Below are positions 10,727 to 60,005 of a DNA stretch of 64,000 nucleotides, piece after piece (position 1 is the first letter of the stretch; every line of letters starts with the position of its first letter). A program made the position numbers and the translations under genes. Under the pieces are notes generated by a model that ran no database searches, was not told where the DNA came from, and saw only the letters and a list, made by a program, of their open reading frames with translations. This DNA comes from Streptomyces purpureus (GTDB taxonomy: Bacteria > Actinomycetota > Actinomycetes > Streptomycetales > Streptomycetaceae), in NCBI RefSeq assembly GCF_014648195.1, contig NZ_BMQQ01000001.1, forward strand, positions 666,750-730,749, in the 5' to 3' direction.

Positions 10727-13700
10727 TCATGGACAGATCCGGCGGTACGTCACTCCGGCAGGTACGTACCGGTGCCATTCCCGCTCGGTCATGGACCGGC
10801 CCGCGGCCGCGCAGGCCCTGTCGACGAGGGTGCCGAGATCGTTGAACAGGTCGGTGTCCCACAGCCGCGCCGTCGCGTCGTTGCTGCTGGTGGCCAGGGT
10901 CTTCCCGTCCGGGCCGAAGTCCACCCACCACACGGTGCCGGTGTGGCCGGTGAGGATGGCCAGCTGCCGGTGGGTCCGTACGTCCCACAGCCGCACCGTC
11001 CGGTCTTCGCCGCCGGTGGCCACGGTCTGCCCGTCCGGGCTGATGGCCGCCGACAACACGGTGGCGGTGTGGCCGGTGAGGGTGGCGAGCTCACGGTGGG
11101 TGCGTACGCCCCACAGCCGTGCCGTGGTGTCTCTGGCGCTGGTGGCGAGGGTGTTTCCGTCCGGGGTGAAGGCCACCGACTGCACCCAATCGGTGTGGCC
11201 GGTGAAGGTGGCCAGCTCGCGGTGGGTCCGTACGTCCCACAGCCGTGCCTGCCGCCCGTCGCCGGCGGTCGCCAGGATCCTTCCGTCCGGGCTGAAGGCC
11301 ACTGAGTTCACCTGCTGAGTGTGGCCGGTGAGCGTGGCGATCTGGCGGCGTGCCCGCACGTCCCACAGCCGTACCGTCCGATCGACACCGCCGGTGGCGA
11401 GGGTGCCGCCGTCCGGACTGACGGCCACCGAGTTCACCGAGCGGCTGTGGCCGGTCAACGTGGCGCGCAAGGGTGAGCTGAGCGTGGTGAGGAGCCGGGT
11501 GCGGGTGTCGGCGGTGGGGTGGATGCGCTGTGCGGCCAGCGCGAGGCGAGCCGCCAGGGCGGGATCGCTCAAGGCGTGGAGCTGGCTCTGTGTGGTCAAC
11601 CGCTCGACGGCGGCCAGATCCCGTTGCTCGCTGCTGGTCCGGGCGTTGCGGGAAGCCAGACTGGACACGACGAGGACGAGGACGGCCAGGAGGGCGAAGC
11701 CGGCCAGGACGAGGCGGCGCCGGCGGGCGGTGCGGCGCTGGACCTGGATGCTGGCCTCGACGAACTCCGCTTCCTCCGCGGAGATCTCGGCCGCACGCGC
11801 GCCGAGCCACCGCTTCGCCTCGTCGGCCCGGTGCCGGTCGAGGGTGAGTTCTCGCGGCCGGCCCCGTTCCTGCCAGGCCCGCACGGTGCGCCGCAGCTCC
11901 TCCTGCCAGCTGCGGAAGTCGCGGTTGCGCTCGACCCAGCTCTGCAGTCGTGGCCAGCTCTCCACCAGTGCCTGGTGCGCCAGTTCGGCCGTGTCGAGCC
12001 CCGTCGGGCGGCGGGTCACGACGACCAGCCGCGTGCTGGCCAGGCGGTGGATCAGCGACCAGTCGTGCTCGGAGAACTCCGACCGATCGGCGACCCTGCG
12101 TGTGTCGGGGCCGCGTTCGCCGACGTCCAGCCGCTCGGCGGGGCGGACCAGCTGGATGAAGATCCTCTCCAGCGCCTCGTGCTCGGTACTGTCCGCCCAC
12201 TCCCACAGGGTGCGTTCCGCGTTGCCGACCAGTGCTCCTTCGACCCCGCCGAGCTCCTGGTAGGCGCCGGCCGTGAGTACCCCGCGCTCCTGGCGTGCCC
12301 ACAGCTGGCTGAGGGTGTACTCCAGCATGGGCAGCGCGGCCGCACCGTGCGGGGTGTCGTGCAGCAGCCGCTCGACCAGACCGTCGGCGAAGCGGATGCC
12401 GGCGTGCCCGGCCAGCGGACGGGTGATGGCGGCGCACAACTGGTCCCGGGTCATCGGCGGCACCACCACATGGGTCGCTTCCCAGGCGGCACGGAGGTGG
12501 GGGAGCTGCTCGATCTGCGGCAGGAAGTCGATGCGGCTGACGACCACCGCCTGGGCCGGCCGGCTGCCGTCGGTGCGGCGCATGGTGACGACGCCCAGCA
12601 TCGCGTCGAGCTTGCGCGCGGTTTCCGGCGCGTCCGCCAGCAGGGTTTCGAACTGGTCGAGTACGAGCAGGAGCTTGGACCGTTCGTGGTGGCGGGCCAA
12701 GGTCTGCTCGACTGCGGTGCGCAGCCCCTCCTCGTCCGCCAGCCGGCGGGCGAGGGCGGACCAGTGGTCGTGCCAGTCGGCCGTCCTCGTGTCCGCGTCG
12801 CCCGCGGACGCGAGCGCCCAGGCGAGCAGTTCCTCGGCGGTCAGCCGCAGCCCGTGGGGGAGACGGGCGATCAGATGGCGGTCCTGGTCGACACGGGCCA
12901 GCAGGCCGGCGCCGGTCAGCGAGGACTTGCCGACGCCGGAGGCGCCGAGGACCGGCAGGATCGGTACCTGTTGTTCGCCGAGCAGTTCGAGCAGCCGGCG
13001 CGTTTCTTCGGTACGTCCGTGGAACACCGCGCTGTCGTGCTCGGTGAAGGGCAGAAGCTCACGGAACGGACTGTCGTCGAGCAGCCGGGAGCGTAACTGC
13101 GGCCACTCCCGGGCGAGCGACTCCACGGTGAGCGCATAGCCGGTCCGGCGCCGCTGGTCCCCTTCGACGGCGACGACGACTCCGATGACGCCCTGGTACT
13201 CCTCGTCCCACACCGGTGCCCCGCTGAAGCCGCCTGCCAGCGGGAAACCGGCCTGCTCGTCGCAGGTCAGCTGCCACCAGCCGGTTCCCTCCCGGCCCTC
13301 GACGGTGCCGCGGGTCCAGACGCCGGCATCCTTGCTGCCGCCGGCCCCGGGGTACCTCGGGAAGCCGAAGGCGCGCCAGCGGTGTCCGGCGAGGTCGTCC
13401 GCCTCCAGGATCCGCATCGCCACGGCGCCCGTCGGCAGGTCGTCGGTCAACCGCAGCACGGCGACGTCACCGCTGTTGTCGGCGGCCACCGGCACACTGA
13501 AGTGCACGGTGGCCGCCGCCTTGGGGTGGCCCGGCAGCAGGGGGAAGTCGACGGTCACGGGGAAGCGGGCGGGCAGCGGCTGGTCGTCCGGGAGGCCGGC
13601 GAGGGAGGAGATGACGTGCGCGCACGTCAGCAGCAGCCGGCCGGGGATCAGGAACGCGACGCCGACCGGCCGTCCTTCGTGCAGGACTCGCGCCGTCCCG

Positions 13701-13738
13701 CGCTCCCACGCCAGGCCCGGCCCGCCCGGCGAGCTCAC
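10727..13738 (-). CDS. Trypsin-like protease - STAND NTPase - TM - WD40 conflict-system protein
   Basis: 1003 residues from GTG 13738, which overlaps the stop of the upstream small gene by 4 nt (GTGA). Order: trypsin-like domain (~10-210) with His41 in LLTCAHVI, Asp91 in NSGDVAVL and Ser172 in GGFSGAP; STAND NTPase (~225-600) with P-loop GASGVGKSS (265-273) and Walker B KLLLVLDQFETLL (Asp361); a helical region; one transmembrane segment (~676-696); five WD40 repeats (~758-970); and a conserved-looking tail with EREWHRYVPAGVTYRRICP. Known relatives are placed in NTP-dependent conflict/defence systems of multicellular bacteria, where WD40 senses, STAND oligomerises and the protease acts. Five repeats are fewer than the seven of a closed propeller. 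Target and trigger are unknown. Confidence 0.9.
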   Translation of the reverse strand: MSSPGGPGLAWERGTARVLHEGRPVGVAFLIPGRLLLTCAHVISSLAGLPDDQPLPARFPVTVDFPLLPGHPKAAATVHFSVPVAADNSGDVAVLRLTDDLPTGAVAMRILEADDLAGHRWRAFGFPRYPGAGGSKDAGVWTRGTVEGREGTGWWQLTCDEQAGFPLAGGFSGAPVWDEEYQGVIGVVVAVEGDQRRRTGYALTVESLAREWPQLRSRLLDDSPFRELLPFTEHDSAVFHGRTEETRRLLELLGEQQVPILPVLGASGVGKSSLTGAGLLARVDQDRHLIARLPHGLRLTAEELLAWALASAGDADTRTADWHDHWSALARRLADEEGLRTAVEQTLARHHERSKLLLVLDQFETLLADAPETARKLDAMLGVVTMRRTDGSRPAQAVVVSRIDFLPQIEQLPHLRAAWEATHVVVPPMTRDQLCAAITRPLAGHAGIRFADGLVERLLHDTPHGAAALPMLEYTLSQLWARQERGVLTAGAYQELGGVEGALVGNAERTLWEWADSTEHEALERIFIQLVRPAERLDVGERGPDTRRVADRSEFSEHDWSLIHRLASTRLVVVTRRPTGLDTAELAHQALVESWPRLQSWVERNRDFRSWQEELRRTVRAWQERGRPRELTLDRHRADEAKRWLGARAAEISAEEAEFVEASIQVQRRTARRRRLVLAGFALLAVLVLVVSSLASRNARTSSEQRDLAAVERLTTQSQLHALSDPALAARLALAAQRIHPTADTRTRLLTTLSSPLRATLTGHSRSVNSVAVSPDGGTLATGGVDRTVRLWDVRARRQIATLTGHTQQVNSVAFSPDGRILATAGDGRQARLWDVRTHRELATFTGHTDWVQSVAFTPDGNTLATSARDTTARLWGVRTHRELATLTGHTATVLSAAISPDGQTVATGGEDRTVRLWDVRTHRQLAILTGHTGTVWWVDFGPDGKTLATSSNDATARLWDTDLFNDLGTLVDRACAAAGRSMTEREWHRYVPAGVTYRRICP
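10860..11460 (-). repeat. Five in-frame 126-bp repeats encoding WD40 units
   Basis: Within the STAND gene a 126-bp (42-codon) period is visible. Each unit encodes TGH, then SVAFSPDG-like, then a DxTxRLWDV-like ending. The DNA of the units is strongly alike, for example the recurring GTGTGGCCGGTGAG on the plus strand at 10941 and 11067. High identity between units points to recent duplication or exchange. Confidence 0.85.
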
Positions 13739-14061
13739 CCGTCGCCCTCGGGGCGACTCCACTCCAGTTGCAGCGTGATGTGCGCGTCGCCCGACCCCTT
13801 GGCCACGACGAACCCGGCCTCGGCCGTGACCCGGATGCCGAACTCGGCCCGGATGTGGTCGGGGCTCCGCGGCAGGTCCGTCAGCCGCTCCAGCAGTGCC
13901 TCGGCGACGCGTCTGACGCGGGCCATCCCGGCTTCGAAGGTGTCCGCCGAGGACTCGAAAAGCCCTTCGCCGCGGCTGGCCCGGAGGACTCCGGAACCTT
14001 GCCCTTCGCCCAGTTCGACGACCATGGTCTCGCCATTCTCGAAGGGCACACTCATATACAC
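13735..14061 (-). CDS. Trypsin-co-occurring domain (CU044_2847-type) protein
   Basis: 108 residues. GTG 14061 has an AGAGAGG site 8 nt upstream; ATG 14055 is the alternative. The sequence reads as a small beta-rich domain: an N-terminal MSVPFENGETMVVELGEG strand region, a helix with FEAGMARVRRVAEALLERL and C-terminal strands ending in DAHITLQLEW. This matches the small domain that habitually precedes trypsin-STAND genes (trypco1/CU044_2847). It is translationally coupled to the protease-STAND gene through a 4-nt overlap, so the two should be made together. A regulatory or substrate role for the protease is likely but unproven. Confidence 0.8.
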   Translation of the reverse strand: MYMSVPFENGETMVVELGEGQGSGVLRASRGEGLFESSADTFEAGMARVRRVAEALLERLTDLPRSPDHIRAEFGIRVTAEAGFVVAKGSGDAHITLQLEWSRPEGDG

Positions 14062-14267
14062 GCGCGACGCCTCTCTGACGGTCCGTCAAGTCAACTGTAT
14101 TGGGGACGAGTTGACCAGGTCAGTACTGCGCAGCATGTTAGCCCTGATCTTCGCCGGGGACCGTCGGTTCGGGAGTCGTCGGGATTCAACCGGCGTCAAG
14201 AGCGCGTGTCGGGGAAGGCTCGCCGCCGTCCCGTAAGACGCGCGACGTGGTGGCGAGAGGAACCGAC

Positions 14268-14699
14268 ATGAGCCGTCCCCTGGAGAAGACGATCGACGCG
14301 ACACTGCGGTCGGTGATCGGCGAATGGCATGAACTGCTGGTACGCCTGCGGTACGTGCCGCACGACCCGCTGGCCGTTCGGCTGGACTTCCTCGTGGCCG
14401 AGTCCGAGCCACCCGTCGCCACCTGGGTGTTCGCCCGGGACCTGCTCGCCACCGGCCTCACCCGCCCTTCGGGCGAGGGCGATGTGCGCGTCCGTCCGCA
14501 CGGGCAGGACGCGACGGACGTCGAGCTCATCTCAGGACGGGCCCGGTGTCTCGTCAGGATGGCATCGGTCCCCGTGCGTGACTTCGTCGTCAGGACCCGG
14601 CCCGCCGAGGAGCACTGCGACGAAGAGATCGCCACCGCTCTCGGCCGGCTGCTGACCGAGCTCCTCCCGGGCGGCGTGAGGAAGAACGCGGACTCATAG
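14268..14699 (+). CDS. SsgA-like sporulation/cell-division regulator
   Basis: 143 residues from ATG 14268, with GAGAGGA upstream. It shows the SsgA-like (SALP) pattern: short N-terminal helix, LDFLVAESEPPVATWVFARDLL, GLTRPSGEGDVRVRP and a C-terminal helix with CDEEIATALGRLL. SALPs are restricted to morphologically complex actinomycetes and steer septum and spore-wall events. The gene diverges from the conflict module. An 81-nt gap separates it from the gas-vesicle operon and no terminator was seen between them. Confidence 0.9.
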   Translation: MSRPLEKTIDATLRSVIGEWHELLVRLRYVPHDPLAVRLDFLVAESEPPVATWVFARDLLATGLTRPSGEGDVRVRPHGQDATDVELISGRARCLVRMASVPVRDFVVRTRPAEEHCDEEIATALGRLLTELLPGGVRKNADS

Positions 14700-14780
14700 G
14701 GGTAGGCGCTCCCGGCAAGGCCGGTTCATACCAACGGGTTTAGGGCGAAGGGACCCGGCAACGCGAGAAAGGAGAAAGCT

Positions 14781-15119
14781 ATGGCCCATTCATCGAAAGA
14801 CGGGTCGGACAGCAAGGCGGAGCAGGCGGAGCAGGCGGAGCAGGCGGAGCAGGAGCGGCCCGTGCCGGTCGCCACGGTGATCAGGACGGCGACGGAGCAG
14901 CTCGCACAGCTGCTGAACCAGCCGGCGGAGGCCGTCAGTTCCTGCGAGCGGATCGAGAACGGCGACTGGCGTCTGTCGGTCGAAGTCCTTGAACTGCGGC
15001 GCGTGCCGGACACCATGAGCCTGCTCGCGTCGTACGAGGTGGATGCCGATCACGACGGCCAGCTCCTCGGCTATCGGCGCACCCGCCGCTACGAGAGAGG
15101 GCGGGCGGACCGCCGCTGA
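14781..15119 (+). CDS. gvpO: Gas vesicle protein GvpO
   Basis: 112 residues behind a strong AAAGGAGAAAG site. The C-terminal domain (~35-105) carries the GvpO core with WRLSVEVLELRRVPDTMSLLASYEV and a GYRRTRRYERGR tail. The N-terminus holds an acidic EQA repeat encoded by four 9-bp GAGCAGGCG-like units (about 14818-14854), a likely hypervariable tract. First gene of the operon, as in other actinomycete gvp clusters. Confidence 0.9.
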   Translation: MAHSSKDGSDSKAEQAEQAEQAEQERPVPVATVIRTATEQLAQLLNQPAEAVSSCERIENGDWRLSVEVLELRRVPDTMSLLASYEVDADHDGQLLGYRRTRRYERGRADRR

Positions 15120-15186
15120 GCCCCGGGCGACAGCCCTGCGCCTCTCCGTACCCGTCCGTCCCAAGACGAGAGGGAGACCGAGAAGG

Positions 15187-15618
15187 ATGACTGTCGTTCC
15201 CGCCCAGACCGCTCCGGCCGCCTCCGGAGGTGGCTCCAGCGGTCTGTACGACGTGCTCGAACTGGTGCTGGACCGAGGTCTGGTGATCGACGCGTTCGTG
15301 CGCGTCTCCCTGGTAGGCATCGAAATCCTGAAGATCGACGTCCGCGTCGTCGTGGCGAGCGTCGACACCTATCTGCGGTTCGCCGAGGCGTGCAACCGCC
15401 TGGACCTGGAAGCCGGTCCGCGCAAGAACCCCGGCCTGCCCGACCTCGTGGGCGACATGACCGAGTCCGGTGCCCGCGCCAAGACCAAGGGCGCCCTCAG
15501 CGGGGCGGCCCAGACCATCTCCGACGCCTTCACCCAGGCACACGACGAGGCGGCGGAGGAGAAGAGCGGCAGCAGTACGCGTCGGCGCACCTCGACCCGT
15601 CGGGAGGAGAAGGAATGA
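15187..15618 (+). CDS. gvpA: Gas vesicle structural protein GvpA/GvpJ family
   Basis: 143 residues from ATG 15187; an upstream in-frame start at 15043 would overlap gvpO and is rejected. Residues ~18-75 are the GvpA shell fold: LYDVLELVLDRGLVIDAFVR then VSLVGIEILKIDVRVVVASV. The ~70-residue C-terminal extension is charged (KTKGALSGAAQ, then a Lys/Arg/Glu tail) and is longer than the bare ~70-residue haloarchaeal shell protein. As the second gene after gvpO it occupies the gvpA slot. Its stop overlaps the gvpF start (ATGA). Confidence 0.9.
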   Translation: MTVVPAQTAPAASGGGSSGLYDVLELVLDRGLVIDAFVRVSLVGIEILKIDVRVVVASVDTYLRFAEACNRLDLEAGPRKNPGLPDLVGDMTESGARAKTKGALSGAAQTISDAFTQAHDEAAEEKSGSSTRRRTSTRREEKE

Positions 15619-16334
15619 GCACATACGTCTACGGCATCGCCCCCGCCGACCGGACGCTTCCGGAGCCCATCGAGGGCATCGGCGACCCGCCGCGGCCGGT
15701 ACGCACCGTACGCAGCGGCGATCTGGTGGCCCTGTGCAGCGACGCGCCCGCGGAACCCAAGGCCAAGCGCCGCGACCTGCTCGCGCACCAGCACGTCGTG
15801 ATCACGGCGGGCGCGGCCGGCCCGGTCCTGCCCTTGAGGTTCGGCGGCGTCGCCCCCGACGACGCGACCGTCGCCGCGATGCTGGCGGAGCACCATGACA
15901 GCTACCTGGAACGGCTGACGGCGCTGGAAGGCAAGGACGAGTTCAACGTCAAGGTGCACCACGACGAAGAGGCCGTGCTGCACCTGGTCGTCGCCGCAGA
16001 TCCCGACCTGAGGGACCGGCACGCCGCCCAGCGCGCCGCGGGCGGCGGGACCCACGAGGAGAAGATCGCCTTCGGTGAGCGGGTCGCCCGCGCGGTGGCC
16101 GAGCAGGAGAGGACCGACGCCGCGCTCGTCGAGCGGACCCTCGCACCGTACGCCGCGGCGGCGGTGCGCGGACCGGAGGACACCGGCCGGCTCGCCAATC
16201 TGTCGTTCCTCGTGGAGCGTGAGCGGCGGGAGGAGTTCCTGGAGGCCGTGCGCGCCCTGCGGCAGGAGAACGCGCACCTCCGGGAGCAGGTGACGGGACC
16301 GCTGCCCCCGTACAGCTTCGTCGGGACGGGCTGA
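15615..16334 (+). CDS. gvpF: Gas vesicle protein GvpF (GvpL/GvpF family)
   Basis: 239 residues starting at ATG 15615 in an ATGA overlap with the previous stop. It begins MSTYVYGIAPAD, typical of GvpL/F proteins, has VLPLRFGGVAPDD in the N-terminal domain, and ends with LANLSFLVERERREEFLEAV and GPLPPYSFVGTG. GvpF is an accessory protein thought to help nucleate shell assembly. A second family member lies at 17159. Confidence 0.92.
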   Translation: MSTYVYGIAPADRTLPEPIEGIGDPPRPVRTVRSGDLVALCSDAPAEPKAKRRDLLAHQHVVITAGAAGPVLPLRFGGVAPDDATVAAMLAEHHDSYLERLTALEGKDEFNVKVHHDEEAVLHLVVAADPDLRDRHAAQRAAGGGTHEEKIAFGERVARAVAEQERTDAALVERTLAPYAAAAVRGPEDTGRLANLSFLVERERREEFLEAVRALRQENAHLREQVTGPLPPYSFVGTG

Positions 16335-59804: not shown

Positions 59805-60005
59805 GCAACGGGCAGGTCTTCGGACTCGCGGGCACACCCTCCTCGTGGAGGACACCTACTGGCCGTCGCTTCCCAGGACCGTTGTCCGGTCCCAGTGCGT
59901 ATGACGGCGGTCGTTCCCGCTCACCGCTGCGGGGCAGTCCCGGATTCCCACCGGGTTCCCTCTTGCGACGCATCCCGCCTGGCGGACGGGGCGAACCAGC
60001 TGCAG
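59805..60005 (-). promoter_or_regulatory. Cobalamin (B12) riboswitch upstream of metE
   Basis: Read on the minus strand, the leader contains GGGAACCCGGTGGGAATCC, then GGGACTGCCCCGCAGCGGTG, and at its end the B12-box-like GAGTCCGAAGACCTGCC (around 59813-59830). This order is that of the AdoCbl riboswitch core. It ends about 170 nt before the metE ATG, as in other actinomycete metE leaders. Exact limits and the mode of control were not determined. Confidence 0.9.

Follow-up and report, generated by a model that had tools for sequence, protein, structure and literature searches.

One of the two Trypco genes is often located beside genes of trypsin-like peptidases, and trypsin/Trypco1 proteins have already been predicted to serve in conflict (PMC7159879). 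In the AVAST type 1 system, which is proven to act against phages, the trypsin domain of Avs1b is fused to a STAND nucleoside triphosphatase (NTPase) and cuts and activates the product of the upstream gene; bacterial STAND defence proteins recognize phage proteins made inside the cell (PMC12799240). STAND-WD40 proteins of the WRAP type have been implicated in prokaryotic innate immunity (PMC6805158, PMC9218822), and it has been suggested that the sensors of related systems sit near the membrane or in the periplasm (PMC7159879, PMC10907252). These papers and those cited below are represented by parts of their text, and statements that rest on them are limited to those parts. Here we analyzed a gene pair in a stretch of 64,000 nucleotides of Streptomyces purpureus DNA (contig NZ_BMQQ01000001.1; "the window" is this whole stretch), in which a small Trypco1 gene is followed by a gene whose large product joins a trypsin-like protease, an nSTAND1 NTPase, a transmembrane helix and WD40 blades. 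The large protein resembles the immune receptors of animals and plants, but probably faces outward. We lean towards reading the pair as a mobile two-gene conflict module, with an NLR-like receptor that would span the membrane and hold its sensor outside the cell. The features of the pair are as follows.

13735-14061, minus strand: Trypco1 gene, 108 residues, GTG start, TGA stop; Pfam PF19493 82.6 bits, NCBIfam NF041216 62 bits
13735-13738, minus strand: 4-nt stop/start overlap GTGA, common to the Trypco1 end and the large-gene start
10727-13738, minus strand: trypsin-nSTAND1-transmembrane-WD40 gene, 1003 residues, GTG start at 13738
13094-13738, minus strand: trypsin-like protease domain, residues 1-215; His41, Asp91, Ser172
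11852-13069, minus strand: nSTAND1 NTPase, residues 224-629; P-loop Lys271, Walker B Asp361 (motifs read by eye)
11657-11716, minus strand: single transmembrane helix, residues ~675-694, with an Arg-rich stretch on its N-terminal side (inside)
11480-11632, minus strand: helical spacer from membrane to propeller, residues 703-753; predicted helices 703-721, 726-739 and 743-753 (low to middling confidence)
10838-11467, minus strand: five WD40 blades of 42 residues each, residues 758-967; predicted propeller 761-960, block pLDDT (predicted local distance difference test) 76-93
10730-10837, minus strand: C-terminal tail with Cys976 and Cys1002

The original prediction had described a small Trypco1 gene overlapping by 4 nt with a protein that carries an intact Ser-His-Asp protease, a STAND NTPase, a membrane anchor and WD40 repeats; it gave no strand, and both genes lie on the minus strand. 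These parts were all recovered. The overlap is GTGA, from which we infer that the two genes are translationally coupled, and a 4-nt NTGA overlap recurs in the 11 orthologues with the junction read (of 14 with a full Trypco1). His41, Asp91 and Ser172 were located as claimed, and the protease part scanned alone matched Trypsin_2 (PF13365, 48.7 bits, cut-off 27.6, residues 28-187). Lys271 was likewise found in place; the match to nSTAND1 (PF20703, 288.4 bits, cut-off 27.1) and the intact P-loop assign the NTPase to the nSTAND1 family, and the PF19493 match (cut-off 24.6) with the adjacent trypsin-like peptidase gene assigns the small protein to Trypco1. The repeats matched WD40 (PF00400, 197.8 bits, cut-off 27). 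The predicted model of the full-length protein had a mean pLDDT of 60.8, with much of the trypsin part below 50, and only its propeller was usable. The domains, the coupling and the intact triad were thus borne out, as was the claimed likeness to predicted conflict systems of multicellular bacteria (PMC7159879).

Like the Trypco1/trypsin conflict systems (Kaur et al. 2020, PMC7159879), the window pair has Trypco1 beside a trypsin-like peptidase, a multicellular actinobacterial host, an NTPase core and a variable C-terminus. There, Trypco1 stands beside VMAP (MoxR-vWA), whereas here the protease is fused to nSTAND1, helix and propeller; no VMAP, MoxR or vWA gene was found among the scanned window neighbours, or among the annotated features of five plasmid loci and of the disrupted plasmid locus L100 (described below), whose gene tables are incomplete. 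The EACC1 two-gene system (PMC7159879) is alike in its small constant upstream gene, N-terminal peptidase, variable C-terminus and link to the membrane. However, it combines the EACC1 transmembrane protein with a caspase-bearing protein, neither of which is present in the window pair, where Trypco1 (no transmembrane helix) precedes a Trypsin_2 protein; moreover, its authors take the C-terminus as the effector, whereas we read that of the pair as the sensor. The Avs1a/Avs1b pair of AVAST type 1 (PMC12799240) shares the trypsin-STAND fusion and the immediate upstream partner, and the awakening of its protease by oligomerization is counted as a further likeness. Its upstream gene encodes an MBL-fold pro-nuclease; here no MBL-fold nuclease gene but Trypco1 stands upstream, and a membrane helix and WD40 blades are added. 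The PADLOC Avs1b model gave a weak match (E 0.023) over residues 25-129 only, in the trypsin part, and the best PADLOC match of the large protein was RT-Protease_XI (27.7 bits), also in the trypsin part. The design that the original prediction called uncharacterized is so for the exact pair, but AVAST type 1 provides a trypsin-STAND fusion with an upstream partner for which antiphage action has been proven (PMC12799240).

The WRAP-type, recently amplified STAND-WD40 proteins (PMC6805158, PMC9218822) share the STAND NTPase with C-terminal WD40 repeats (14 blades in relatives) and the turnover of blades. Their near-identical blades are not seen in the window copy, where blade DNA identity is 62-76%, and the window protein is naturally five-bladed and has a membrane helix and a trypsin domain. 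HET-D/HET-E of Podospora (PMC12222747) are likewise NLRs with a WD40 sensor in which blade number and content change specificity, but they are fungal and intracellular, with a HET domain and high internal repeat identity. In the literature on trypco1, nSTAND1 and trypsin-STAND-WD40 proteins, a pair with an outward propeller was not found described; the literature on membrane and extracellular sensing was covered in part, so that absence from print is not established.

To compare the pair with its wider relatives, we used 88 loci matching the large protein (28 from a genome survey and 60 picked among the matches listed). Nine loci without a main open reading frame (ORF) by the P-loop rule (L046, L137, L143, L146, L148, L149, L154, L168 and L175) were dropped to leave 79, of which 45 have the trypsin domain and 34 lack it; three of the 79 are incomplete at the C-terminus, and 76 were used for cysteine counts. 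His41, Asp91, Ser172 and Lys271 were all kept in 45 of the 45 trypsin-containing homologues. The helix, with a mean hydropathy of 2.83 over 19 residues, is the sole strongly hydrophobic segment of the large protein, in keeping with the membrane anchor named by the original prediction, which missed that this helix would separate protease and propeller across the membrane. In 78 of the 79 loci, the 15 residues preceding the helix contained more Lys and Arg than those following it (means 5.8 and 2.3), the sole exception being L173, in which the helix is mis-placed. All 76 complete loci had a cysteine pair 21-30 residues apart within the last 60 residues. The number of outer cysteines was even in 69 of the 76, compared with 45 of the 76 for the inner half (38/42 and 31/34 for trypsin and trypsin-less loci outside, versus 27/42 and 18/34 inside). 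No cysteine was found outside the tail in the outer half of 20/42 trypsin and 31/34 trypsin-less loci, and extra ones were mostly paired. Beyond the helix, the window copy and 14 near-orthologues contain only two cysteines each, which lie in the tail, and Cys976 and Cys1002 probably form a disulphide. A Cys39-Cys159 pair was tried as a mark of an outside protease and rejected, as Cys39 is present in 44/45 but Cys159 in 0/45 of the wider trypsin homologues.

The same nSTAND1-transmembrane-propeller scaffold carries an N-terminal helix-turn-helix (HTH) domain, HTH_31, in L043 and in L022 of the window's own genome (G000:C1), and a caspase domain in L023 of that genome (G000:C5), so that three output types (trypsin with Trypco1, caspase and HTH) occur on one scaffold in a single genome. 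The NTPase requires cytosolic ATP. Because of this need and the HTH_31 and caspase N-termini of the sister proteins, the N-terminus would be cytosolic; and because of the Arg-rich flank and the tail cysteine pair, we strongly infer that protease and NTPase are inside and the propeller outside. As the propeller is probably outward, the ligand would sit at the cell surface, and the large protein probably senses something there. The membrane-tethered protease sensing through WD40, as originally predicted, therefore stands in its domains and tether but needs a change in its implied sidedness. It could instead be argued that the helix anchors only, and that the propeller lies inside and, in the manner of Avs proteins, reads phage proteins within the cell: terminase is among the intracellular phage proteins sensed by known STAND defence proteins (PMC12799240), and the WD40 sensors of fungal NLRs are intracellular (PMC12222747). 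Since a single pass divides NTPase from propeller, and charge bias and cysteine pattern fit the propeller-out arrangement, we regard such a cytosolic sensor as quite improbable.

A scan of genome contigs gave 10 near loci, one of which (L093) shares a contig with the copy of genome G175, and a search of plasmid proteins gave five near copies at 73-82% identity (H1-H5, L095-L099); the near-orthologues thus number 15 (L085-L099), five of them on plasmids (one conjugative, one mobilizable and three non-mobilizable). Two plasmid records of Streptomyces anthocyanicus, in which the match spans 42% of the query, also came up in the plasmid search. In one of these, L100 (NZ_CP109572.1), the module is disrupted, an IS701 transposase gene is nearby, and neither Trypco1 nor the protease part was found. 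A full-length Trypco1 is present at 71-79% identity in 14 of the 15 near-orthologues. When the flanks of 17 loci were compared by tblastx (6.5 kb upstream and up to 5 kb downstream, with little downstream sequence for two loci), only 6 of the 136 pairs shared upstream and 4 downstream flanks. As the flanks are mostly unrelated, the two genes are the conserved unit. The relatives of the gene pair that were found are Streptomyces. Of 199 Streptomyces genomes, 159 have a relative with an E value of at most 1e-30 and 156 have Trypco1, and among the matches listed a copy above 60% identity was present only in the window's own genome and G175. A search with the gas-vesicle flank in 61 genomes found no non-self relative above ~73% among long matches, hence no clean empty-site comparison. 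Phage records gave three weak matches, to the NTPase part alone.

Comparison of closely related copies points to exchange of the sensor. DNA identity between L097 and L098 is 96-98% over codons 1-400, 87-94% to about codon 720 and 62-85% over the propeller, and the synonymous divergence (dS), 0.12 for the protease, reaches 0.50 for the propeller. Because dS climbs along with the divergence, DNA has been exchanged in the propeller, not merely selected. Between L089 and L096, most differences fall within the first half of the propeller, with similarity restored in its second half, and in L085 and L095 the sensor has been swapped. The ratio of non-synonymous to synonymous divergence (dN/dS) was 0.03-0.22 in the protease and 0.12-0.30 in the NTPase for 13 pairs, and 0.40-0.54 in the propeller for 11 pairs of the same sensor type, none of which exceeded 1 there. 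L090, a near-orthologue with a frameshift in the propeller, does not enter the dN/dS, cysteine and blade counts. On these comparisons, the effector halves stay alike and the propellers get exchanged, and the propeller is under looser constraint than the protease. Directly downstream of the pair in both sensor-swapped orthologues lies a lipoprotein-like gene (L085, ~11300-11844; L095, 12344-12871; lipobox read by eye, no Pfam match), whose product is a possible surface partner of the propeller and counts in favour of the outward topology. A weak relative of this gene (32%, E 9.1e-5 within that genome) is found upstream of a Trypco1 pair in G050 (L178).

Plasmid copies, sensor exchange and the looser constraint on the propeller lend indirect support to a conflict role, and a defence role of the pair is plausible in view of the published prediction for trypsin/Trypco1 proteins. 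The same observations bear on ordinary outside-in signalling, in which the large protein would be a surface receptor whose protease frees or destroys a regulator of development, wall stress or antibiotic control. Such signalling draws support from the HTH_31 N-termini of L043 and the own-genome sister, which probably act in transcription, and from the surroundings of the pair: the scanned neighbours in the window are a lipase, a PucR-type regulator, a sporulation-type SsgA-like protein and gas-vesicle genes, the last two adjoining the pair, and no defence gene is among them. On the other hand, the patchy presence of close copies, the plasmid carriage and the sensor exchange do not fit a core developmental gene, and we consider ordinary signalling rather unlikely for the pair.

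Trypco1 is linked to the protease rather than to the scaffold. It lies directly upstream in 29 of the 45 wider loci with trypsin and in none of the 34 without (Fisher p 2.7e-10, in a test that treats loci as independent though they are related and with some loci having only 1.5 kb of flank), and anywhere in the fetched stretch in 35/45 and 0/34, respectively. The remaining 16 trypsin homologues have no adjacent Trypco1, six of them having one elsewhere in the stretch. These adjacency counts fit the published pairing of Trypco with trypsin-like peptidases (PMC7159879). Trypco1 is kept with the protease where the propeller is swapped (L085 and L095), and in a mirror-tree of 12 sequences without these two, Trypco1 distances correlated better with those of the protease (Spearman 0.77) than of the propeller (0.40), a preference that is to be expected of any linked pair and is therefore weak evidence. 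Judged by its distribution, Trypco1 follows the protease. An AlphaFold2 model of Trypco1 from ten close sequences reached a pLDDT of 52.5, no credible match among solved structures came from profile or sequence searches, and two scans of viral contigs yielded no more distant Trypco1 sequence. The L021 region of the window's own genome (G000:C9:28442-28747) contains a second Trypco1, which precedes a separate trypsin-like ORF (GVSGGP motif read by eye) with no WD40 part in view, in a stretch that is partly N.

The tight linkage, the small upstream partner and the 4-nt overlap would suit a toxin-antitoxin unit in which Trypco1 inhibits the protease. Yet in L093 of G175 only a short in-frame remnant of Trypco1 is left beside an intact triad, an intact P-loop and 14 blades, which argues against an obligatory antidote, and the 16 homologues above also keep the triad with no adjacent Trypco1. 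A further Trypco1 gene might act in trans from elsewhere in those genomes (two matches were found in G175), but we find an antitoxin role unlikely. The loss in L093 is a natural experiment on the role of Trypco1.

By analogy with the described systems, the conflict module could work as follows. The outer-face propeller would meet a surface signal such as a phage particle or its adsorption, a rival's protein, conjugation or contact. The signal would pass via the single helix to the cytosolic nSTAND1, where nucleotide exchange and clustering would follow, and the clustering would switch on the attached trypsin-like domain. The protease would act with Trypco1, most likely by cleaving it or by being guided by it to other substrates, so that Trypco1 would be substrate, guide or regulator by the logic of AVAST type 1, with the trigger outside the cell. 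The cell would then arrest or die and neighbouring hyphae would be spared. If this is true, the same switch is joined to an outside sensor, and filamentous bacteria could judge phages, rivals and mating partners before entry, like animal surface receptors.

This conflict reading is backed at the sequence level by the domains, the intact active sites, the gene coupling, the Trypco1-protease linkage, the sensor exchange and the plasmid carriage. Several observations weigh against it: the trypsin homologues with no adjacent Trypco1 and the remnant in L093; the absence of defence genes among the scanned window neighbours; the HTH-bearing sisters, which point to a possible use of the scaffold in ordinary signalling; the own-genome paralogue L022, which has four outer cysteines but no tail pair; and an automatic search for the lipoprotein gene near the wider loci, which found it at 1/45 and 0/34 (it missed the G050 case). 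A receptor of this class lends itself to direct tests, as its predicted topology is simple and strong, its active sites are intact and sensor-swap pairs (L097/L098 and L089/L096) occur in nature.

The window copy differs from its relatives in the propeller, a difference that the original prediction missed. It has five blades, compared with 13-15 blade anchors in the 12 WD40-type near-orthologues counted, and its 309 residues after the helix are the shortest measured (392-773 in the 76 complete wider homologues and 687-748 in 14 orthologues). L093 has 687 residues there, and the shortfall of 378 equals 9 x 42 residues. Assembly collapse was considered as a source of the five blades and found unlikely, as the units differ and the longest exact repeat in the coding sequence is 26 bp. 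WD40 propellers of all sorts made up most of the Foldseek list for the full-length model; the WRAP five-blade fragment 6r60 ranked 9 with a TM-score of 0.89 over the target, which fits in length but does not prove dimerization. Matches to Apaf-1 structures were set aside for a root-mean-square deviation near 30. Five-blade fragments of the bacterial WD40 proteins PkwA and WRAP dimerize (PMC6805158), and the window copy is a natural counterpart of such a laboratory-made dimer. By analogy, its propeller may alter the sensing step through a dimer or lose sensing, and the copy may be a re-wired dimeric sensor or a blunt one.

The blunt sensor would be a decaying allele, in which the array collapsed to five blades and sensing was lost. 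The extreme shortness of the window copy speaks for decay, as do the broken relatives L090 and L100 (truncated and disrupted) and the case of Podospora, where het-d/het-e alleles are non-reactive if they carry fewer than ten WD40 repeats (PMC12222747). However, the window frame is open, and exactly nine units are missing relative to L093. The window branch has 50 synonymous and 26 non-synonymous codon changes, compared with 45 and 28 for L093 (p 0.61), so that constraint on the effector part is not visibly relaxed, although a very recent change would escape notice. Decay is somewhat doubtful but a serious contender. We also propose, tentatively, that the nSTAND1-transmembrane-propeller proteins of Streptomyces form an outward NLR-like repertoire with a cytosolic trypsin/Trypco1, caspase or HTH output and an exchangeable extracellular propeller with a tail disulphide, the sensors being traded by plasmids; in this repertoire, the window copy would be a natural five-blade form able to complete its fold only by pairing with a second copy, the loss of nine blades turning a ligand-gated into a dimeric receptor.

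The assembly of the window's own genome has 7.5 Mb in 94 contigs. Upstream of Trypco1 lies an inverted repeat, tentatively a promoter or operator, the CAACT half of which is kept upstream of the orthologues (at least 14 of the 16 regions aligned).

14090-14115, minus strand: upstream element GTCAACT-N12-AGTTGAC (inverted repeat read by eye)

Beyond it, at 14277-16331, an SsgA-like gene is followed by gas-vesicle genes (GvpO, gas vesicle protein and GvpL/F). Elsewhere in the window, a cobalamin riboswitch (Rfam RF00174, 83.7 bits) is located at 59806-60002 on the minus strand.

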